Assembly: GCF_019649055.1 (NCBI RefSeq)
Contig: NW_026570253.1
Coordinates: 186,001-250,000, forward strand
Direction: 5' to 3'
Source: Paramacrobiotus metropolitanus
Lineage: Eukaryota; Tardigrada; Eutardigrada; Parachela; Macrobiotidae
DNA length: 64,000 nucleotides
Numbering within the stretch: position 1 is the first letter of the stretch; each line of letters starts with the position of its first letter. Both the position numbers and the translations under genes were made by a program. This document shows positions 28,548 to 61,344 of this stretch, piece after piece. The notes below the pieces were generated by a model. The model worked only from the letters and a program-made list of their open reading frames with translations, searched no databases and was not told the DNA's origin.

Positions 28548-31500
28548 TCACCAGAATTCGTTGGCGTCACTATATTGCTGGGATGCGGAGCGGTCGTATA
28601 AATCGCATCGTAGCCAGTCCATCAAACGACGAGGCCGTTTATCGGAAGCAATCTGCAAATGACAAAATACAACTGAGAATTCAACGCTTTTGCTCGTTTC
28701 GAAGTGCTGATAAATAGTAAACTACAGCTTTTTTCGGCTACAGAAATTAAGTCGTCGTATCCTTGAATGAATTCGACAATGATATTAATCAATGTAGAAA
28801 CAGAAATGTGCGAAACTGCAGAATCAACAGAAGCTGGACCACTATCAAGTACTTAATTTCTTATTTTCTGCCTATGTAAAAGTTATCAGTACCCTATGGA
28901 CTTGAGCTTGAACGGGTGATGCATTGTGGTAAGCAGGTTTTGTTTATGATTCCGTGACGAATATCATTGCTATAATCAACACAACAGCACAACGCACCTT
29001 GAAAACGTTCTTTTCCAGCGGATAAATCAGTCCATCCGCTAACAGATACACTTCTGAATGCGTTGAACTGTCAGCCACTGTCGGCCACTCCAGCGCCGCC
29101 TGCAGCCGCCCCGGAAAGCCCATCTCTTTGCGCAGCGGGAGCGGGCCGCGGACCTGATTGAAGTCGGAAAGCGGATGCAGCACCCAGTATTCCTCACCTA
29201 CCAACACGCAACGCATCCGTCAGAAAAGATCTAGCGAAACAATGCAGCGTCCAGAGTCGCACCTTTAATGAAGACAATTCGGCCCTCGGTCCAGACAAAC
29301 GCAGCGTCTAGATCGCCGGTTTCTGGCAAGCCGGGGAAACCGCTGGCGATATCTTGTGGGTAACCGTCCAGGGCTTCGAAACCCTTGTATTTCCAGTATA
29401 ACTGGCCCTGTCATCGTAAAGTCATATTTAATTGTGGCACGTCGCATCTTTCCCAGTGAGAGTGAATTCACATGATGAAAAATTGATTTGCAGAGAGAAG
29501 ATGTAGAATTTTCATGCTGTATTGCCTGTTCTGTCGCCTTAATAAGGACCATTCTTTGCTGATGTTGCCAGTTGGTTCCAGCGGAATCTCCCACCGAGCA
29601 CTCCGTTTTGACAACGGTGCTCAAATTTTGGAATATTTTTTGAGTTTCCACTTTCGAAAAGTAATCATAGTCAAAACCCTGATCGAGAAGGATCCTTTTC
29701 CGACCCCGAAGCAATAGCAGAGGGTCTAATCATTATGGAAGGAAAGGTGTCGAGAGTGCTGCAGCTGCTTACTGATAACGCAGAAGAAAATGGTTTCTGG
29801 CACGGTATCATCCGTGTGGTGCAATATCGCGAAAATCCACAGATAAGCACCCCGTCCCTGATTTATTTTTTTTCTCGGCCTGGAGTAAAATTATCGTTCC
29901 ACATTATTTTTCTTAGTTTACCTTAGTCCTTTATCTGTTCCAAATATTTCCTGGCTTGAAAAATTGTTGCGGGGCAAAAAGTTTGAAATTATGAATAACT
30001 GGAAGAAAATATCAGTACACCGATCTCTAAGATACCGCCTAATTTCTTTTCGAAAACGTTTGATGAGTGGCTGTTTAGCTGTTTGCGTTGTATAGAGATT
30101 AAGGGACATTGTTTTGAGAAAATACGAGGAAAGCGCTGATGCAATAAAAAATCGTGCGATAGTTATCATTACTTTCCGAGTAACCCTCGTATTTATTACT
30201 CCAAAAAATATATACGCGGTCTGACATGTGCCACACAGCGCGACTGTTTTGAGCAGAGTTGTATTATCCACCGGTTTACATCACAATGTAACATTAATTT
30301 TGCGTAAAACCTAACAAAAAAATGTAAAAATGTGAAAAAATTATAAACAGTATAAAAACAATATTAGTTTTCAAAAGAAATGGTTAGTGAGCCCGGAGGC
30401 TTACCTTAAAGAAATAAGTATGGCCGTTAATCCATGTGAAGGCCGCGTCGATATCGTTGGGCAGGTTCGGATAATACTGCTTAATAGACAGCACTTTGGA
30501 GATATACCGATGCGGATCCACCACCCAGAAGTGTTCAGCTGCAACAGTAAAGGTCAACTCATTGTCAACATCCAGAAGACAGCCACATCAGACTGACCAG
30601 CTTAACAGGCCAAACTCGTATAAGAGGCTCATAAAAAAAACGAAAAACCCCGCAGATATAATGTTGATCGAAAACCCTAGGGCTATGGACAGCCGGTAAG
30701 GAAAGCGTAGCTTATATGACCGAAAGGGTAAAACAGAACAGAAACAATGAAAATATTACGACTAGTTTTCTGATTTTGTTTCTAGTGATTCATCGATAAT
30801 TTAACTTGCTAAAAATTCTTATGCCGACATTGTTTCATTAAATCAAATTTGTGCAACAGATATCAATAATGCACTCACCATGTACAGACTGTATGGCGCG
30901 ATTCAGAACTTTTCAGCCTGCAGTAGTTTGTTTCGCTTACCGCTGAATATATAAACATGTCCGTCGTTGGTAGTCATAATGGCATTCGTATCGAAGAATT
31001 CATCGCAGGGATTGAGCAGACTGGCCACACCGGCTTGCTTCAGGGTGATGGTGGGGCGTGTGGGCGGCGGGGGCTCGGCGGTGGTGGTGGATGCCGGCAG
31101 GGTGCGTTGCCGGCCTCCCGGCTCCTCCTCACTGCGTACAAAGTTCAGGTATTTCACCATGTTGGGCGGGCGTTTGGCGGCCGGCGCGTACACACTGCCG
31201 CAGCCGTAATACGTGTTGATCTTCTCCGCGTCCACACCGCTCAGTTCGCGCCGCTGTCCCAGCATCTTCAAATTGATGTTGGTACTGGTCGGTGTCAGAG
31301 TGGGTCGGCGTTCGTCACGCGACTGCAAAACCAGAGAAATTCATGTCATACTTTACAGAAACAGCTGATTGTATTCCATAGCCTTATCCGATTATTCGCG
31401 CCCAAAATTATTAACAAATAAAATTAAGTAAAGTTTTTCTGGGCGTGAAATTACAAACAGCTGCGTATAATATAAGATTCTAATGATATTTTTCGTAACT

Positions 31501-33995
31501 GTACGAGTATGCCAGCATCACTCCGATCGTCTTAGACAGATCCAGAAAATTATCGAAATGCACTTGACTTACTGGATAATGAAATACCGAAAATATTTTT
31601 CGTTAAGAAACTAAAGATATACTTACAAATGCGTAAGCGGAATAGTGCATAACCGAATTGTAGTCATACTGTTTGCCCAGGTCGTCGATGCTGCCGACGG
31701 CGCGTTTGTGGAAGTTCACTTCGCGACCTATCACAGAAACCATAATAATCGACCTCATAAGGAAATACCCAGCCATTGTCAAATGGATACATTCATGATG
31801 CTTACCCGGTTCCATGTTGGACCACAAAATAGTGATAAACGAATCACGGTCCAGTCGCGTGTGCTCGTGGTAGAAGCCCAGCACGTGCAGGAGTTCATGC
31901 GCGACCACACCCATCTCGGTCAGGCACCTCCACGGGTCCAGCGTCACCACTTGCTGGCCGCCGCGCCGACCCACGTACGACGAACAACTGAAACGAAACA
32001 CCAAAATGATAGTCACAAATTTCATCGAGACATGCTCCGCGTTTTACCCAATTGTGTTGGGGTCATACGGAGTACTTCCATATAATAAAAATTAATGGTA
32101 CTCATAACAAAAAAGCGCCAATAACTGCAAACAAACAGATTCTGATACAAGTATGCATTAATTAATATTAGTTGTTAACAACTGACAATTCACAGAGGAT
32201 TGTATTGTATTGGGTGTATCAAAAACTCAGTTCTCCCCGTCTTTGTAATATATACTACAGCATTTCAAAAATAATATACCAAGGGCAATGATTTCCGTAC
32301 GACTGCGATAAACATTTCTTGTGATTAATTTAAAATGCATTCTCGATTGTTACGAAACTGACTACTGTTTTGAAAATGGTATACCGTATGTTAAAAGCTT
32401 ATTTAAAAAACAAAAAATTCCTTAATTTTTACGAAGAAGCACGAAGCAGCAAATGTACACTGGTTGCTGCTTTTAGTGCTGTCTCGCCGGCGTGAATAAC
32501 CGAATGGGAACTCGGTCAAACACCGGCCTTGACCGAGGCCGTAGTAGAGTCTAGCGTACTACGTACAATACAACGGCGACGTATCTCCGTATTAGCTAAG
32601 CCACTGCATTAAACACCGAAATACTGCGAATGTAGTGTATACTGCGCCGTGGCTAAACTATTTCACACTGTTCCAACACACCGGCACTCAACGGTACACT
32701 ACTTCCGGTTGTGGCTAGCGCGCACTTACCCTTCACCCGGCATAATGCGCACATAATCCGCTTCCGAGGTCCTCTCCACAAAACTGATACACGTCTTTTT
32801 CTGTAAAAACCACATCACACGTGCTGACCACAAGGACAAAGCGCACAAGATGCGGCTGCTGTTTTCTGCGGAAATCAATGGAAAACAACTTACTCGAATT
32901 TCATCCATTGCGCTGTAGATCATTTGCTTCTGCTCGAAACCTATTCAATTCAAAATTGGTTCAGCGCGAACAGAAATACCAAAGACCTGAGAAAATATTA
33001 ATATGCCAGCCAAAATAAATGGGCCTCGACTTATTTAAAGAAAGATTCAAAACAACACAGTTATTACGCTTAAGTGTTTTGCAAAATAAAATTACAGTTC
33101 TTAAAGATAACAAATTCAAAACATGAACAGAAAGCTGGCATCGTTGCCGAAACTCACTGTAATATGGGTCAATCGTATAGGGCACCACTCCTTTCGTCCA
33201 TTTCCGGTAGTCAGCATTGGTTACCGCTCGAACCTGTCGTTCGAAGCCGCCAGGCAGCACAATGTCGCCTTCATGGTGCGCTAAATACAGTCCACGGTTA
33301 TTTAAATCAGCCTTACTGTATAACATATTCGCAGCGAAACCGGCAGCGTACCTCCCACTTCATCTGCATTGGGTTGCCACAAAAATTCCTCAGAAGCACT
33401 TTCTTCGGGAGTTTCAGCCACTGCAAGATAAGTTGGTTGAAATGCAAAACGCTGCAAACCACATTGCGCACATTTCATAAAAAAAATCTTCTCCGCACCG
33501 TAAAACGCTTAAGTGAAAAGGAAAAATTACACTTAAATTACCTACACCGGAAAAAAATAAATTTTATTTTGATAAAAGATTCGGAGTGCAAAAATGCGGC
33601 TTAATTGATTAATAGCGTAGGGCGGATACACCGCAGCCGGCTGCTGATCGCCATCCTTCGATGACGTCGAAAGTAAACAAAAGTAAACAACAACAACAAC
33701 AACAAAATATCTTCTGATTCAGAACCACCCAACAAATTGTTGGTTTAAATAAACGAAAGATGACCAGTGCTTCTAACAAAAACCTCCACCTCGGGATAAC
33801 CGTTACATAAAGGACGCATTAACTGTCCAGAGCCAATGTACTACTTTATAGTCATTCATATGACTGCAACATACACAGGATATCGTCCACCGAAAGCCGT
33901 TTAGAAATATAATAATCCGGGATGATAGATGCACCGTTAGTTCTCCACAATACCGTCATCCACAGGCACAATAACTGTATCCCGTTGGAATGCAT
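28548..33995 (-). CDS. Astacin metalloprotease with C-terminal hemopexin domain
   Basis: Eleven exons (minus strand, 5' to 3'): 33875-33995, 33158-33420, 32894-32940, 32730-32800, 31806-31987, 31627-31727, 30941-31322, 30405-30538, 29263-29407, 28998-29197, 28548-28652. They give about 583 aa if a one-base slip in exon 2 is allowed. Exon 1 encodes a signal peptide (MHSNGIQLLCLWMTVLW). The propeptide carries the aspartate-switch motif EGDIVLP; RQVR precedes the mature start AVTNADYRKW. The catalytic domain has the zinc site HELLHVLGFYHEHTR (about 198-212), the Met-turn SVMHY (about 253-257) and the four usual cysteines (about C148, C169, C189, C303). A Thr/Pro linker leads to a four-bladed hemopexin propeller bounded by C368 and C565, with DAAF repeats (DIDAAFTW, DLDAAFVW) and FWVVDP/YWVLHP strands. 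Secreted astacins process matrix and peptides; the propeller is known as a substrate-binding module in MMPs. Exon 2 needs a frameshift or tiny intron near 33,350 (see findings). Confidence 0.9.
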
Positions 33996-34842: not shown

Positions 34843-37800
34843 TCACATCACCACATTGACAGCTTCCTCGGAAGTTGTCGACACCGGCGGCGGCCGGCGC
34901 TTAGCAATGCGCAACAGACGAATGAGCGCATCGGGCGTGATGCCCTCGATGCGGCTGCAAGCCGCCAAGGAAGCGGGTCGCAGGCGTTTCAGCTTCTCCC
35001 TCACTTCCCCAGACAGATTGAGGCCGCGCTCATCGTAGTCAATGTCCACCGGCAGCAATACTGACTCGTCGGCCTGAACACGGGCCATGTCCAACTGCAG
35101 GTCTCGAGTCGCTTCCGCGTAGGTGGCGCTGATTTTTATACGTCGTCCCAACCAGTCCATCTCCAATAACTCCTTTAATTCCGGCTAGAAAAGTACCCCA
35201 TCAATCAAGTGTACGTACTGTTTTTAGCTTTGTAAATGCTACAGCAGCTAACGCTTATTTTTCTTCCAATCAGTCAATTGTTTCCCATTGTTTCGTTACA
35301 ACTACGGTGCATCAAAGCGTTTGAAACGCTAAAAAAGTAAAATACATACCACCTATGCATTTAATGTGAATGAATACTTCAGTCAACCTTGAAAATCATA
35401 AGAGGCTTCAAAAATAAAAATAAAACTTTGCCCAATAATTTAAGCGAAATTCTCAAGCAAAAATAACTTGTAATCAGTAGATTAGCCTGATAATGACAAC
35501 ATGCTTGAAACCGAACAGATTCTTGCAAAACAAGCATGGCTTTAATTGTACGTACATAACCCCATAACTCTGGTAATTATAATTGATAATTCAGCGTACA
35601 GGAAGCGTCTAAGCAAAACTAAAAACCGTTACTCAACCACCTAAATTAAGTAACCTACATGTTCACCGCCAACGCCATTCAGCAGCGTCTGCACCGAGAT
35701 GTCGGGATGGTTAAGGACCTGATACGCATTTCGCGCATCCGGCTTCGTCAAGTTGAAATCAACGTTCAACTTGGAAGCCCATTTGTGGGACGACATTCGC
35801 AGGGATCGCAGCAACTCCATTGCCCGGGCTAACTGCGCTTTCTGTGTGGCATAACGCTGCTGGCGGGCTTCTCCGATGCAACCCACGCTGATTCCTTTCT
35901 CCGTCAATCGCGCATCTTCGATTTAGAACACAGCTTACTGGTTAGGAAATTGTACGAAACAGCAATCAAACGATGCCGCTTAAGCACAACGTACCGGCGT
36001 TGTCCGGTCGCAGCTTTAAGCGGTACTCGGCGCGCGAAGTAAACATGCGGTAGGGTTCTGTGGCTCCCAGCCGAGTGAGATCGTCGATGAGGACGCCAAT
36101 GTAGCCTTCGGTGCGGCTGATGACAAAAGGAGGCCGGTACAGGGCGTTGCAGCCGGCATTGATTCCGGCGACTATGCCCTGTGCAGCGGCCTCTTCATAA
36201 CCTATTCAATTTCAATACCCATTTTCTGCACAAACAGGCAAACATTTTCACGTTCTTCATAATATGCGATCCTGACATGAGTTCAGTATTTACAGCATCC
36301 CCATTTTGTTACCAGCTTTTTTTTGTAACAGTATCACTTTTAACTACATCTAGTTAGTGCTGGTTACGATATCCTACCTGTCGTGCCGTTTATCTGGCCA
36401 GCCAGAAACAAGCCCGGCATGCGGTGCGTTTCTAGAGTTTGCTTCAACTGCCGCGGATCGATGAAATCGTACATGACACCGTAACCAGACCGAAACATCT
36501 CCACGTTCTCCATTCCAGGAATTAATCGTAATATCTTAATCTGCGACCACAAAAATTCCAATAAAGGCGTGTTTATCAGTTTGATGATATGGGCAGTTCA
36601 CCTGGTATTCCACCGGCATTGTCATAGACAGCCCATTCGGATAGATTACCTCCGAATCAAAGCCTTCCGGTTCCAGCCAGACTCGATGCGGTAAGTGTCC
36701 GAATCGAATGGATTTGGACTCAAAGGAAGGACAGTATCTAACATCGAAATACAAATAAGCAAACCTTATTGACACAAAGTAAGTGCGCAGGAGGCAGTAT
36801 AGTTTTAAAAATGTTATCGCAGTATTCACATTAACGGTACGCCAGTTACAGAAAAATACCAACAAGACGGGAAAATTTCCCAATACAAAAAGCAATCAAT
36901 AACGTCAAACGCTGCAACGGAATTCTCTTAAACAGATAGGTCGAACACATTAAAAATAAGTTAAAATAAATGAGAAATATCTATAAAAAAATATGATTAG
37001 ACTATTCTTAGAAAAAAAATGAAAACCCGCTGCAGATCAAAACTGCTTCCGCTACGAAAGTGTTTCGAGCACAGAACAGCCAGAGTCGAAGTACGTAACT
37101 GTCTAAGCAAAACCAAGTTATCACATCTCACACACCTAAAAACCGTAAAAAGAAAAAATAAAACTGCTTTCAAATACCTCGGCCCGCGCGTTTCTTCCTT
37201 CACATGCCGATTCAGATGCAGCGTGTCCAGCACAATCTTACTGCACTCCGCAGGCGTGTATGTGATGTGGCACAGCATCTGCTGGTCCGCCGCAATCCAC
37301 GGCCGATCATTCATAAAGGAGAAAGGCAAAGGGGGATCGTCACCATAAAACACGCCGGTCTTGGTGAAATCAATGGTCTTCTTATCCAACCGCGGCGGCG
37401 TGCCCGTTCGCAGGCGGGCCATAGTGAAACCGGCCTTCTCAATCGTCTGCGCAAGTGCAACCGCCGGGGCGTCGCCAATCCTCCCCGCCGGCCGTGTCTC
37501 CAGTCCGATATTGATTTCCCCCCGCAGAAAAGTCCCGGTGGTCAGGACAACCGATTTGGCGTGATAGGTGGTGCCGTCGGAAGTGACAACGCCGCGGCAA
37601 GTCGTCTGAGAGGGATCAATCTCGGAGGGCTGGGTAAGGAGATCGTCCGCAGAGGCGGCGTGGATGGTGAGGTTCTGGTAGGCTTTCAATTCCGCTTGCA
37701 TATTGGATTTGTACAGCTTCCTGCAAATTATCACAAATCTGTTCGAGTTGCGATCATTTCTGCATTCGAAACAAAATAGCGCTTGAGCGATCCTTGTAAT

Positions 37801-38512
37801 GAGTGCACATGCAGTCCACTGTCCACAGATAAAGCAACGCGCAAAAATAATTTTTAGGACTGTCCAGGGAAAAAAGGAAATTCGATCGAAATAAGCCAAT
37901 GGGTAATCATAAAACAGCTTCGCGGAGCAATTGCCAGCACTCATTTGCGTCATTACAGAAATTAATACAGTATTAATGAGTTAAGAACGCTACTCATCGA
38001 ATTACGTTTCATCTGCTGAGTGCATACAGTACCGTCCAGTACCTGTCGATCTGAGCGCGATATCCCCAGACGGCCGGTCCCTTCTTGCGGTTGAGTACTT
38101 TGTACTGCACGCCCGAGATATCACAGATCCGTCCGCACACCCCGTCCAGCGCGTCCACCTCCTTCATCAGGTGGCCCTTGCCGATCCCCCCGAAGGAGGG
38201 ATTGCAGGACATTTCGCCCAGGGTGTCCAGTTTGTGAGTAACCAAAAGTGTTCGCGCGCCCATCCGCGCCGCCGCACACGCCGCCTCTGTGCCCGCATGG
38301 CCGCCGCCCACCACAATCACGTCGAAGTCACGGCCACCTGCATAAGACGTTCCCATTGCTGACTGCCGGCTGTGATCGACAGTAATCGTCGTACCTGCTG
38401 TGCTCGACGAATTCGACAATGTTCGGTGGAATATTCCCAGCAGATTCCGGACCAGTTGATGCCGCGAGAAGAGCACTGACTCGCATTCTGCCAGCAGTCG
38501 ACTGGTTAACAT
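34843..38512 (-). CDS. MTO1: MTO1, mitochondrial tRNA wobble-uridine modification enzyme
   Basis: Seven exons (minus strand, 5' to 3'): 38043-38512, 37178-37720, 36602-36737, 36378-36540, 35995-36201, 35659-35915, 34843-35184. All phases match and give 705 aa, close to the usual length. The start is followed by an arginine-containing, acid-poor leader (MLTSRLL...[14 protein letters not shown]) that suits mitochondrial import. The FAD-binding motif [14 protein letters not shown] sits near residues 65-80. Both GidA signatures are present: [15 protein letters not shown] across exons 2/3 and [20 protein letters not shown] across exons 4/5. With GTPBP3/MSS1, this enzyme installs the taurinomethyl (or carboxymethylaminomethyl) group at U34 of mitochondrial tRNAs, supporting accurate mitochondrial translation. 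The C-terminal helical region ends ...EEAVNVVM. It is divergent from the selenoprotein T gene, about 860 bp between start codons. Identity is secure. Confidence 0.97.
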
Positions 38513-57488: not shown

Positions 57489-60149
57489 TCATCGACTGGC
57501 GCTGTGGGCTATCGTCTTCTTCCGTCCCTTTCCCCCTTCATGCAGGTGGCTGTAGCCGTTAGTGGGGTAGATCCGATGGAGTTTCTCATCCGCCGGGAGT
57601 TTATCAAAAAAGCCATGCTCCATGGCAGCCCTGAGGGTGATCCGCCGTTCGGGATCATACTCCAGCATGCTCTCAATTAAATCGAATAGTTCCACGGTCT
57701 CCTCCTCAGTATCGCGCATATATTTCTACAAACAGAAATCCGCGGAATGTTTTAATATATTCTCTTGTGCTACAGATACTTCTCTCAAAAAAACTTATTC
57801 ACACTTAACCAAATTTAAACTGTTTTGGAAAACGCCGTGAATATTTTGGAATTGTTTTGATTCCCGAAAGAGATGTTTTAGTCAACGCGCAAGCAGATTT
57901 CGGTCACCTTTAGAGGTTTACAATGTGTTTGGACATATTGTCCATTCTGTGAACGCTTGTCCCATTCCAATTTGCCATTGCGGAAATAGCTGGTCTTGGT
58001 TTTGCGGATTAGTCGTGAAGGCATAGGCCCTAATATCCTACAGACATTTTCAAAATGAGGCCCAGACTTTGAAAAACATTTGTGTGATATATACCTCTCC
58101 ATCATGGCAAGATGTTCCGTATTGTCATGCGTCTGGAACAGCGTCACACCCGAGTACAACTCGAAGATTATACAACCGATGGACCATACATCACACGGCT
58201 GCGCCCATGATAACTCTGAAACAACATTCCGTTGTAATTTGTAATCCATGAAGTAATTCGCATCGGGATATCAGTCAATCCAAAGGGTCAGCAAAGACAA
58301 AATTAATACGAGTACTGCGGCTTACAATTAGTTCATACTAATTATCTCGTTCTATACTTCTATAAAAAAGAAACGAAAATATTGTTACAATTATTATCAA
58401 CAAGTACGATGATAATAGTGCTGGTCTCTAATAATGGATAGATCTGGCGGTCATTGCGCATCGCCTCAAGTATTAAAAAAACTTGAAATTTAAAATAATA
58501 AATCAACAACTGCATTAAAATTAGATACCGTTCTTGAAATTTTAACATTAAATTTAAACAATTCAGATTCATTTGAACAGTTAAAGCATCAATAACACAA
58601 AAGCGACAACGTCAGTACGATCAGAAAGTTGTCCACAATATTATTCACCCACCCAATATCACTTCCGGTGCCCGGTAGTGCCGCGTCGTCACCGTTGTAC
58701 TGTGGTGTTCATGGTCGAATGTAGCCGAGCCAAAGTCAATCAGCCGGATCTCCGCGCTCTTCATCACGCGGATCTGGGTGCCGGGTTTTAATTTAATGTT
58801 GCGGGCCTTCTCCTGAGCGTGCACTTTTGTGTAATCGTTAGTCAAGAATAACATGTTTTCCGGCTTCAAATCCGTATGCGTAAGATTATTATCGTGAAGA
58901 TATTTGACTGAGAAGACCAGTTGATAGGCGATGTGGCGCACCTGCGCCATCGGGTACGGATGGTAGCTGTTTTCTTTGAGGAAATCGTACACACTCTTGC
59001 CTAGCATCTCAAAAAGGATGCAAATGTGTCCATGGTAGTTGAAATGATCCACCATTTTAACGCAGAGAAAGCGGCCCTCCGGGTCCTTGCTGTTCAGTTG
59101 GCTTAACACGTTAATCTCCAGCTGGGCCGCGTGCCGGTACTTCTCCACGTTGCGGATGATCTTCAGGGCGCCCGGCGGGTGTTTGGGACGTTTCAGATCG
59201 ATTACGCTCACCTACAAAAAACAAAATTCCACTTAGTAAACTCATGTGGTTATTTGCTTCTGTTCTGGACAAACTGCCACTGGCCAAGTGCGCCATCACT
59301 CTACGCCTGTCTCTAATATCCAGAACTTTTATCTTCGAGGAATGCAAGATTGCAAGTAAATACAGTAATAATACCAGTGCACCGTAATATCACACAGTTT
59401 ATGTGTACCTGTAACCTTATTTGATAAATTTGTCAACACAACATATACTATATAAATAGATAAGTACATACCCGACATGAAAACATAAATACTCGTATAA
59501 AATTAACAAAATACCGTATTGAGTGCAGCAATAAACTGCACGTATCTTATGACCTAGCATTGCCCTCTAAGAATTCTGCATTCAAGCTTTTTCCACTCAC
59601 CACGCGTCCGAATGTTCCCTCGCCGAGGGTTTTCAGAATCCGATAGCGATGCTTTATCACATCTTCATTCTCGTACACGAGATGGCCGTCCTTATCGTTG
59701 ACCACCCGATCCGGGCTTAGGAAGCGCAGCTCCGGCGACGGACTGCGGGATTTCTTGCGACTGGTTGTATCGCGGTCGCGCCGATTGCTGCGACTGCGCA
59801 ACTGTATATCCCGGCTCGGCGAATGATGCCGATGCCGGCCGCGACTGCGGGTATTATAACGGGAGCGGGACGGCTCACGCACCGCCACCCCATGGGTCAG
59901 ACGGGGTTTCTTGGACCGCGGCGCTTTCACCACACTGGGACTACGAGATCGGGTTAAGGAGCGCTCATCGTCGCTGGACGGCGACGGAATGGGCCGCTTG
60001 CGGGCGGCGGTATTGCGCGGCATCCTGTTTTCAGTGGCGGCTAGTGCGGGGGGCAGGGAGGACGCCTCCAGGGATTGCGAGAGATAGGAAGTGAGGCCTG
60101 AAAGGGAACACGACACGTTACCCACCAGACGCAGCAGGAACTTGTCCAT
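57489..60149 (-). CDS. CLK: LAMMER dual-specificity kinase (CLK/Doa family)
   Basis: Five exons (minus strand, 5' to 3'): 59601-60149, 58653-59211, 58095-58215, 57908-58037, 57489-57725. All in phase, 531 aa. Residues 1-160 form an arginine/serine-rich region ([23 protein letters not shown]), as expected for CLKs that bind SR proteins. The kinase domain has the P-loop GEGTFGRVV (176-184), catalytic lysine in ALKIIRN (K200), catalytic loop [22 protein letters not shown], and the diagnostic EHLAMMER (403-410). Further conserved parts are [14 protein letters not shown] and [16 protein letters not shown]. The enzyme phosphorylates SR splicing factors in the nucleus. An in-frame downstream ATG at 60023 ([11 protein letters not shown]) is an alternative start that would drop 42 hydrophobic-leaning residues; an acceptor-like CCCTTTCAG within the first 30 codons also hints that the first coding exon may be mis-drawn. 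Confidence 0.95.
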
Positions 60150-61344
60150 ATCTGGATGATGCGCATGCTAACGTCACCATCGAGCAGCGGTAGAAAAAAT
60201 CACCAACAATCATCAAAAAGAACAAATGCAATAAATACAACAGTACGCACAACACCAACAATTCGCAATGGTTCGATTTAGAGCGCGACAGAATGAGTTC
60301 TGCACGCAAGAATAGTTAGTGTTATAGCGAATTTCGCTGAATGCAAAGTGAAAGTTGAAAAGCTAAAAATGGTCCTCCATGGAAACCTCGCGAACCTTTG
60401 AGGTTCGTTTTCGAGGTCGCAGAGAATTTTGGAGGAAATAACACGTACTGATAACAATTTCTTCACTCAAGGCCAAAAATAAATTGCTGCAGACTGCCAG
60501 CAGTCAGCACAAACGAATGCCATTCGAATACATTTTAATAAAGTCAGACTATAGATATACTTACAGGTTGAGAGTACATACCGTACAGTAATACCGACAG
60601 AAGTCAATACACTCGAAACTAGGGCATGAGGCAGACGCCCATTCACTGCACAAACCACAATCTTTTTTACATAAATATGTAACGTGGAAATTTTTATTTT
60701 AATAATTTAATTTAGAGTTATTGCACTACCCGTAGAGCGTCTTCTAAAATTTGATTAAGTAACTATGTCATTTTTGAGAGAAGGATCATCTGTGCCACCT
60801 AACGAAAACGCTGAACAACCTGAACCATAATGTCCTTAAAGCAAGTATCACTTACTTTGATTTTTTTTATATTATATAAATATTATATAAATATAGATAT
60901 TATATAAAATAAATATTTTATATTATATAAATTTTATAATTTATATATGACGTAAATCACACTATCACATTAATAAACCCAGATATCTACTGAAAACACT
61001 TATTGAACTACTGAATTGCTCACTGTTATGAAAATTAAAAAACTAAATACTTTAAACTAATGCAACATGAATCTAATGGTAAGTAAATCACGGTCCCCCG
61101 CTCACAGCAGTTTGATACTAGCGGAATACGAACCGGAAATTCAAACAGGTTGACAATTGTCACTGCTGGCTTTATGTCACTGAGTTGGGGTGGAACGTTA
61201 AACTCAGAATTTTCGTATTATAATCTGAATGTTGCAATGGTACGCGTAGTTCAGGAATATATAGTGCATAACTAAATAGCTGAATATAGATAATAATTAG
61301 ATATTAATTACTAAATTTTCAGTCACAATTCCGCTAAATCTACC

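Follow-up and report, generated by a model that had tools for sequence, protein, structure and literature searches.

The window, a stretch of 64,000 nucleotides from the tardigrade Paramacrobiotus metropolitanus (contig NW_026570253.1, positions 186,001 to 250,000), carries on its minus strand, between 28548 and 33995, a gene in which an astacin catalytic domain is followed by a hemopexin propeller of the type found in matrix metalloproteinases (MMPs). The coding model has 11 exons and 547 codons running from ATG to TGA, with consistent phases across ten GT-AG introns, five of which lie 3' of the exon that encodes the Met-turn SVMHY. Exons 3-11 were first located by visual reading of the DNA and then checked by script. 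Exon 1 is placed tentatively and is the least certain part of the model; its ATG at 33995 leads into a plausible signal-peptide exon, as judged by eye. The features of the gene are as follows:

33877..33995, minus strand: exon 1 (tentative), with the start codon, a signal-peptide-like stretch and the start of the prodomain; its open frame continues in phase into exon 2
33158..33315, minus strand: exon 2, prodomain and mature N-terminus; the acceptor at 33315 belongs to the tentative join
33264..33278, minus strand: HHEGD, aspartate-switch-like prodomain motif, read from the sequence
32894..32940, minus strand: exon 3, catalytic domain
32730..32800, minus strand: exon 4, catalytic domain
31806..31987, minus strand: exon 5, catalytic domain including the zinc site; PF01400 genome match at G000:C33:217792-217998
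31855..31899, minus strand: zinc-binding motif HELLHVLGFYHEHTR, residues 162-176 of the model
31627..31727, minus strand: exon 6, catalytic domain including the Met-turn
31642..31656, minus strand: Met-turn SVMHY, residues 217-221
30941..31322, minus strand: exon 7 (bridging), end of the catalytic domain, linker and first half of blade 1 in a single open frame
31008..31199, minus strand: 64-residue Pro/Thr-rich linker from the last catalytic cysteine to the first propeller cysteine, examined by a codon log-odds test
30405..30538, minus strand: exon 8, propeller blades 1-2
29263..29407, minus strand: exon 9, propeller blades 2-3
28998..29197, minus strand: exon 10, propeller blades 3-4
28548..28652, minus strand: exon 11, last part of blade 4 including the closing cysteine, C-terminal tail and stop codon

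Astacins and matrixins are metzincin subfamilies distinguished by their catalytic domain and their accessory modules, which in astacins are usually EGF, CUB, ShK or MAM. The astacin consensus comprises the zinc motif HExxHxxGFxHE and a Met-turn with a tyrosine, and the window protein fits both (HELLHVLGFYHEHTR and SVMHY). It matches the Pfam Astacin profile (PF01400) at 213 bits (E 4e-63, residues 78-267, profile positions 1-188 of 189, cut-off 22.5) and the Matrixin profile (PF00413) at 12.6 bits (E 0.13), below the cut-off of 24. The sequence-nearest PDB relatives of this half are tolloid-like 1, crayfish astacin and BMP1, and the complete catalytic domain, zinc motif, Met-turn and four conserved cysteines (residues 112, 133, 153 and 267) are shared with these M12A enzymes. 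In contrast to them, the window protein adds a propeller, and none of the four usual astacin modules was seen in the Pfam scan. The cysteine switch of MMPs was not found, as residues 11-111 are free of cysteine and the only one N-terminal to these, at residue 10, lies within the signal-peptide-like stretch. Six cysteines follow residue 10, a number that would fit two disulfides in the astacin domain and one in the propeller.

The C-terminal half matches the Pfam Hemopexin profile (PF00045) above its cut-off, at 90.3 bits (E 7.4e-26), in three stretches bounded by cysteines 332 and 529, which are 197 residues apart. Blade 4 has no Pfam stretch of its own and is assigned by alignment alone; it aligns with the MMP propellers of the same genome as far as the closing cysteine, apart from about 7 inserted residues. 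Hemopexin, MMP-14 and collagenase-3 are the sequence-nearest PDB relatives of this half. With MMPs (M10A) the protein shares a Pro/Thr-rich hinge, a four-bladed propeller and one putative closing disulfide, whereas its catalytic domain is that of an astacin. The two halves are joined within exon 7, whose open frame begins inside the astacin domain, crosses the last catalytic cysteine and the linker, and stops in blade 1. The codon log-odds of the linker amounts to +48.8 bits in its own frame, compared to -3.4 to 24.6 bits in the other five frames and to a maximum of 6.1 bits across 436 overlapping intron segments, so that the linker looks coding. Both flanking junctions, 31627/31322 and 30941/30538, keep the frame and have GT-AG ends. 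An earlier note on this DNA had described an intact astacin domain continuing in phase across five introns into a complete MMP-type propeller of four blades between two cysteines about 197 residues apart; each of these elements, and the fusion itself, was recovered.

The origin of the propeller was addressed by comparison with the MMP genes of the same genome (169,799,020 bases searched in 533 contigs). A Matrixin search gave 15 exon-level matches, which we group into nine loci, seven of which carry a propeller (L001, L002, two in L003, L004, L005 and L006). The two remaining Matrixin loci, both in L007 (G000:C37:936191-941210), had propeller scores of 63.3 and 52.7, which is the noise level. 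By direct alignment, propeller introns 22/1, 67/0 and 115/1 (residue/phase) of the window gene are common to L002 and L003a, and each of the seven MMP propellers has at least one of the three. The fourth intron of the window propeller (182/0) has a phase-0 counterpart in L003a, both lying 16 residues before the closing cysteine, at a point beyond the end of the direct alignment of L003a. The rough chance of four introns matching within one residue is 1.6e-8, three of the four being backed by direct alignment. Six aligner-placed MMP introns are absent from the window gene (187/0 in L001, 122/2 in L004, 128/2 in L005, and 10/1, 153/1 and 169/2 in L006), and most of these are probably misplacements. 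In the propeller tree L003a is the nearest row by path, and the best local match of the window propeller is the C62 MMP, with 40% identity over residues 1-122. As three of its introns share position and phase with those of MMPs from the same genome, the propeller has retained the exon structure of an MMP. This favours a domain transplant and supports the swap between metzincin subfamilies that the earlier note had proposed.

The same note treated the window gene as a single case. The fusion stands; its singularity does not, since three more astacin-hemopexin genes were found in the genome:

G000:C3:1552748-1555793: L009, astacin-hemopexin gene with altered catalytic residues
G000:C3, about 2560746-2563345: L012, astacin-hemopexin gene with altered catalytic residues
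G000:C49, about 262928-264863: L019, astacin-hemopexin gene with altered catalytic residues

A Hemopexin profile search of the genome returned at least 17 exon matches, none of them in the window gene itself, and one of them led to L009. Its 676-residue model, the end of which is uncertain, scores 82.4 bits with Astacin and 26.9 bits with Hemopexin; KTLVH replaces HELLH, a methionine takes the place of the third zinc histidine, SITFH replaces SVMHY, and the propeller is 20% identical to that of the window protein. A search with the catalytic part of L009 reached L012 (C3:2562745), which combines Astacin (70.2 bits), a Thr/Pro-rich stretch and Hemopexin (22.0 bits, cut-off 21.3) with a site loss similar to that of L009; here Pfam was run on each piece, and the catalytic part and linker exon are joined by strand and order alone. 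L019 has HQLMH for HELLH (Glu to Gln) with the remaining zinc motif and the Met-turn intact, scores 175.5 bits with Astacin, and contains the Met-turn, linker and first half-blade in a single open frame. A model built from the seven MMP propellers of this genome only gave 39.3 bits for L019 (on a string with one extra glutamine at the last exon join, which is uncertain), 27.3 for L009 and 25.0 for L012, compared to best shuffle scores of 6.5 (793 reported from 1000 shuffles), 8.4 and 7.3, respectively. Propeller introns of L019 fall at 22/1, 67/0 and 114/1 by alignment to a consensus; in L012, 22/1 is seen by alignment and two others match in order and phase, as do two in L009. The spliced-aligner score of L019 (88.2) is within the noise range, and its membership follows from the profile score, the three intron positions and the bridging exon instead. 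Compared to inactive metallopeptidase homologs (pseudopeptidases), the three relatives likewise keep the domain but not all catalytic residues, in contrast to the window gene, which retains every one. By metzincin chemistry their sites would be inactive, although the Glu to Gln change in L019 may be a sequencing error. Just upstream of L009 (positions 1-1118 of that locus), open frames resemble von Willebrand A-type domains by eye. A fifth candidate, L008 (G000:C12, near 1613600-1615100, minus strand), has a propeller and was rejected, no metzincin being found within about 11 kb upstream.

To place these four genes among the astacins of the genome, in which at least 164 exon-level matches were found with 150 of 445 candidates scored, 34 astacin loci were examined over about 4 kb downstream each (about 3.2 kb for L026, at a contig end). 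They comprise the window gene, L009-L021 and L022-L041, the latter picked down the list of intron-bearing astacin matches, skipping C444:6101, C173:180961 and C213:41287 (the last lies inside L025). The sample is non-random, L009 having entered through its hemopexin match, and the genome may hold further members. A propeller is present in 4 of the 34; in the other 30 none was found in any frame of the downstream stretch (best E 12, antisense), and an earlier propeller model applied to ten loci only likewise found none (best E 7.2, antisense in L020). Spliced-aligner scores for divergent propellers in L018 and L020-L041 ranged from 58.9 to 87.4 in sense and from 48.2 to 89.6 in antisense; the aligner alone is too noisy for such propellers. 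L011 (G000:C19:272940) and other long single-exon astacins have open frames of 400-980 residues, and the C-terminal part of L011 is leucine-rich-repeat-like by eye.

The catalytic tree places the window gene and L019 among active-type astacins, the window gene in no small well-supported group, and joins L009 and L012 to five other dead-site astacins at 100/100. These five (L013, L014, L015, L016 and L017) are astacin-like, lack a usable HExxH, and had no propeller that we could find; with L009 and L012 they appear to make up a family of astacins with dead sites. The catalytic introns of the window gene at 51/1, 90/2 and 151/1 were considered as proof of its kinship with L009 and rejected, as they recur in other astacins, while 67/0 and 185/0 have no match in the 13 other loci compared.

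Several alternatives were weighed against these data. That the model falsely merges two adjacent genes, an astacin and a propeller gene, is suggested by helminth-specific fusions, many of which are annotation artefacts: in a study of 20 species (PMC12964723), most such fusions were judged likely artefacts, with longer interdomain regions. In contrast to these, the linker in the window gene is short and intra-exonic. One gene is indicated because a single open exon (31322-30941) with coding bias holds the catalytic end, the linker and half of blade 1; moreover, the independent gene L019 has the identical domain order with a bridging exon of its own, and in L009 and L012 the domain order is repeated with linker and propeller downstream. 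A false merger is therefore very improbable. The number of fusion events is a different matter. The window gene and L019 may have acquired their propellers separately from L009 and L012, as the 100/100 split in the catalytic tree, the absence of a detected propeller from the five other dead-site astacins and the lack of catalytic introns 51, 90 and 151 in L019 would suggest. Against this stand the concordant propeller introns of the four members; since these introns also occur in the MMPs of the genome they are not decisive, and long branches make the trees unsure. We regard several independent fusions as a serious possibility though somewhat the less expected one; a single fusion with later losses and several fusions both fit the data.

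How novel the architecture is depends on its distribution. It may be old, spread across tardigrades or animals more widely and already held in domain databases, which would leave little lineage-specific novelty, and we give this about an even chance. The great divergence of the propellers (20% identity between those of L009 and the window gene) suggests age. On the other hand, no description of an astacin-hemopexin architecture was found in the searched literature on astacins, hemopexin, tardigrade proteases and domain shuffling, which left out most subscription papers, nor in the portions available of PMC12549020, PMC11788884, PMC5763927, PMC11266112, PMC1867822, PMC12964723, PMC3566077 and PMC3675644. 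In what was accessible of the pseudopeptidase review among these (PMC11266112), astacins are named once, within a list of metzincins. In a table of PMC11788884 the MMP24 group includes a pairing of Astacin with DUF3377, which we take to reflect cross-matches of the Astacin model to the catalytic domains of MMPs; pairs of Astacin and Hemopexin in databases therefore need checking. In the window protein the Astacin match is full-length and Matrixin is under its cut-off. The novelty of the architecture is provisional. Because three further genes with very divergent propellers were found, the astacin-hemopexin proteins, which number at least four in this genome, are probably a small and old family, and the presence of three relatives suggests an established combination and not an accident.

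Combined, the gene structure, domains, introns and altered sites point to a single secreted metalloprotease gene in which an MMP-derived propeller was placed on an astacin; we consider it likely that the product is a docking enzyme and that the altered relatives are its partners, decoys or regulators. In the predicted layout, a signal peptide and a short aspartate-switch-like prodomain precede the astacin (M12A) domain, which a flexible hinge rich in Pro and Thr connects to a propeller of four blades with a single closing disulfide. An MMP-type gene would have supplied the propeller module, through either exon shuffling or a recombination event within the hinge, with the MMP exon structure retained. 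The enzyme would be secreted as a zymogen kept latent by the prodomain aspartate, and removal of the prodomain would permit astacin-type cleavage. MMP propellers dock the enzyme on substrates or partners; the propeller of the window protein would probably do likewise, with a partner or a substrate in the extracellular matrix or cuticle as its target, and L009, L012 and L019 are probably binding partners, decoys or regulators, which may act by competing for docking sites or by binding to the active enzyme. Expression and activity of the window enzyme, its MMP-like matrix targeting (also suggested by the earlier note) and the partner roles of its relatives are inferred, as are secretion, latency, activation, cleavage and docking, which follow from the known biology of astacins and MMPs.

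Several observations weigh against parts of this reading. The join of exons 1 and 2 is weak, its donor being GTGTAT. The aspartate-switch consensus of astacin prodomains is FxGD, and the window prodomain has HEGD, with a histidine where the consensus begins with phenylalanine. None of the branches in the propeller tree is well supported, and the tree identifies no donor. Hemopexin scores 18.1 bits in L019, under the cut-off of 21.3, and the propellers of L009 and L012 are so divergent that most blades receive no Pfam score. Finally, searches of the genome with TIMP and COLFI (fibrillar-collagen) profiles, made without a positive control, gave no match.

The gene is a natural exchange of accessory modules, through which one can test how far the targeting of MMPs resides in the propeller itself, separately from the matrixin catalytic domain. 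With the three altered-site relatives, as a natural set, one can ask whether inactive homologs are able to regulate an active protease by way of a docking module that they share with it. If restricted to tardigrades, the family would show that the set of extracellular proteases was rebuilt in a lineage-specific way. A stronger version, in which a tardigrade lineage fused an MMP-type propeller to an astacin and derived from it a family of one intact and three altered members sharing a docking module, as an enzyme-plus-decoy system for matrix or cuticle remodelling without counterpart in other animals, is speculative and on present evidence rather unlikely.

A search with a 30-base telomere-like repeat of another tardigrade gave no match, a result that is not decisive. 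Elsewhere in the window, frames resembling the tRNA-modification enzyme MTO1/GidA by eye lie on the same strand upstream of the astacin-hemopexin gene, and frames resembling a LAMMER/CLK-type kinase by eye lie further along:

34843-35184 and 36997-37980, minus strand: MTO1/GidA-like frames
58645-60167, minus strand: LAMMER/CLK-type kinase-like frames with an Arg/Ser-rich N-terminus

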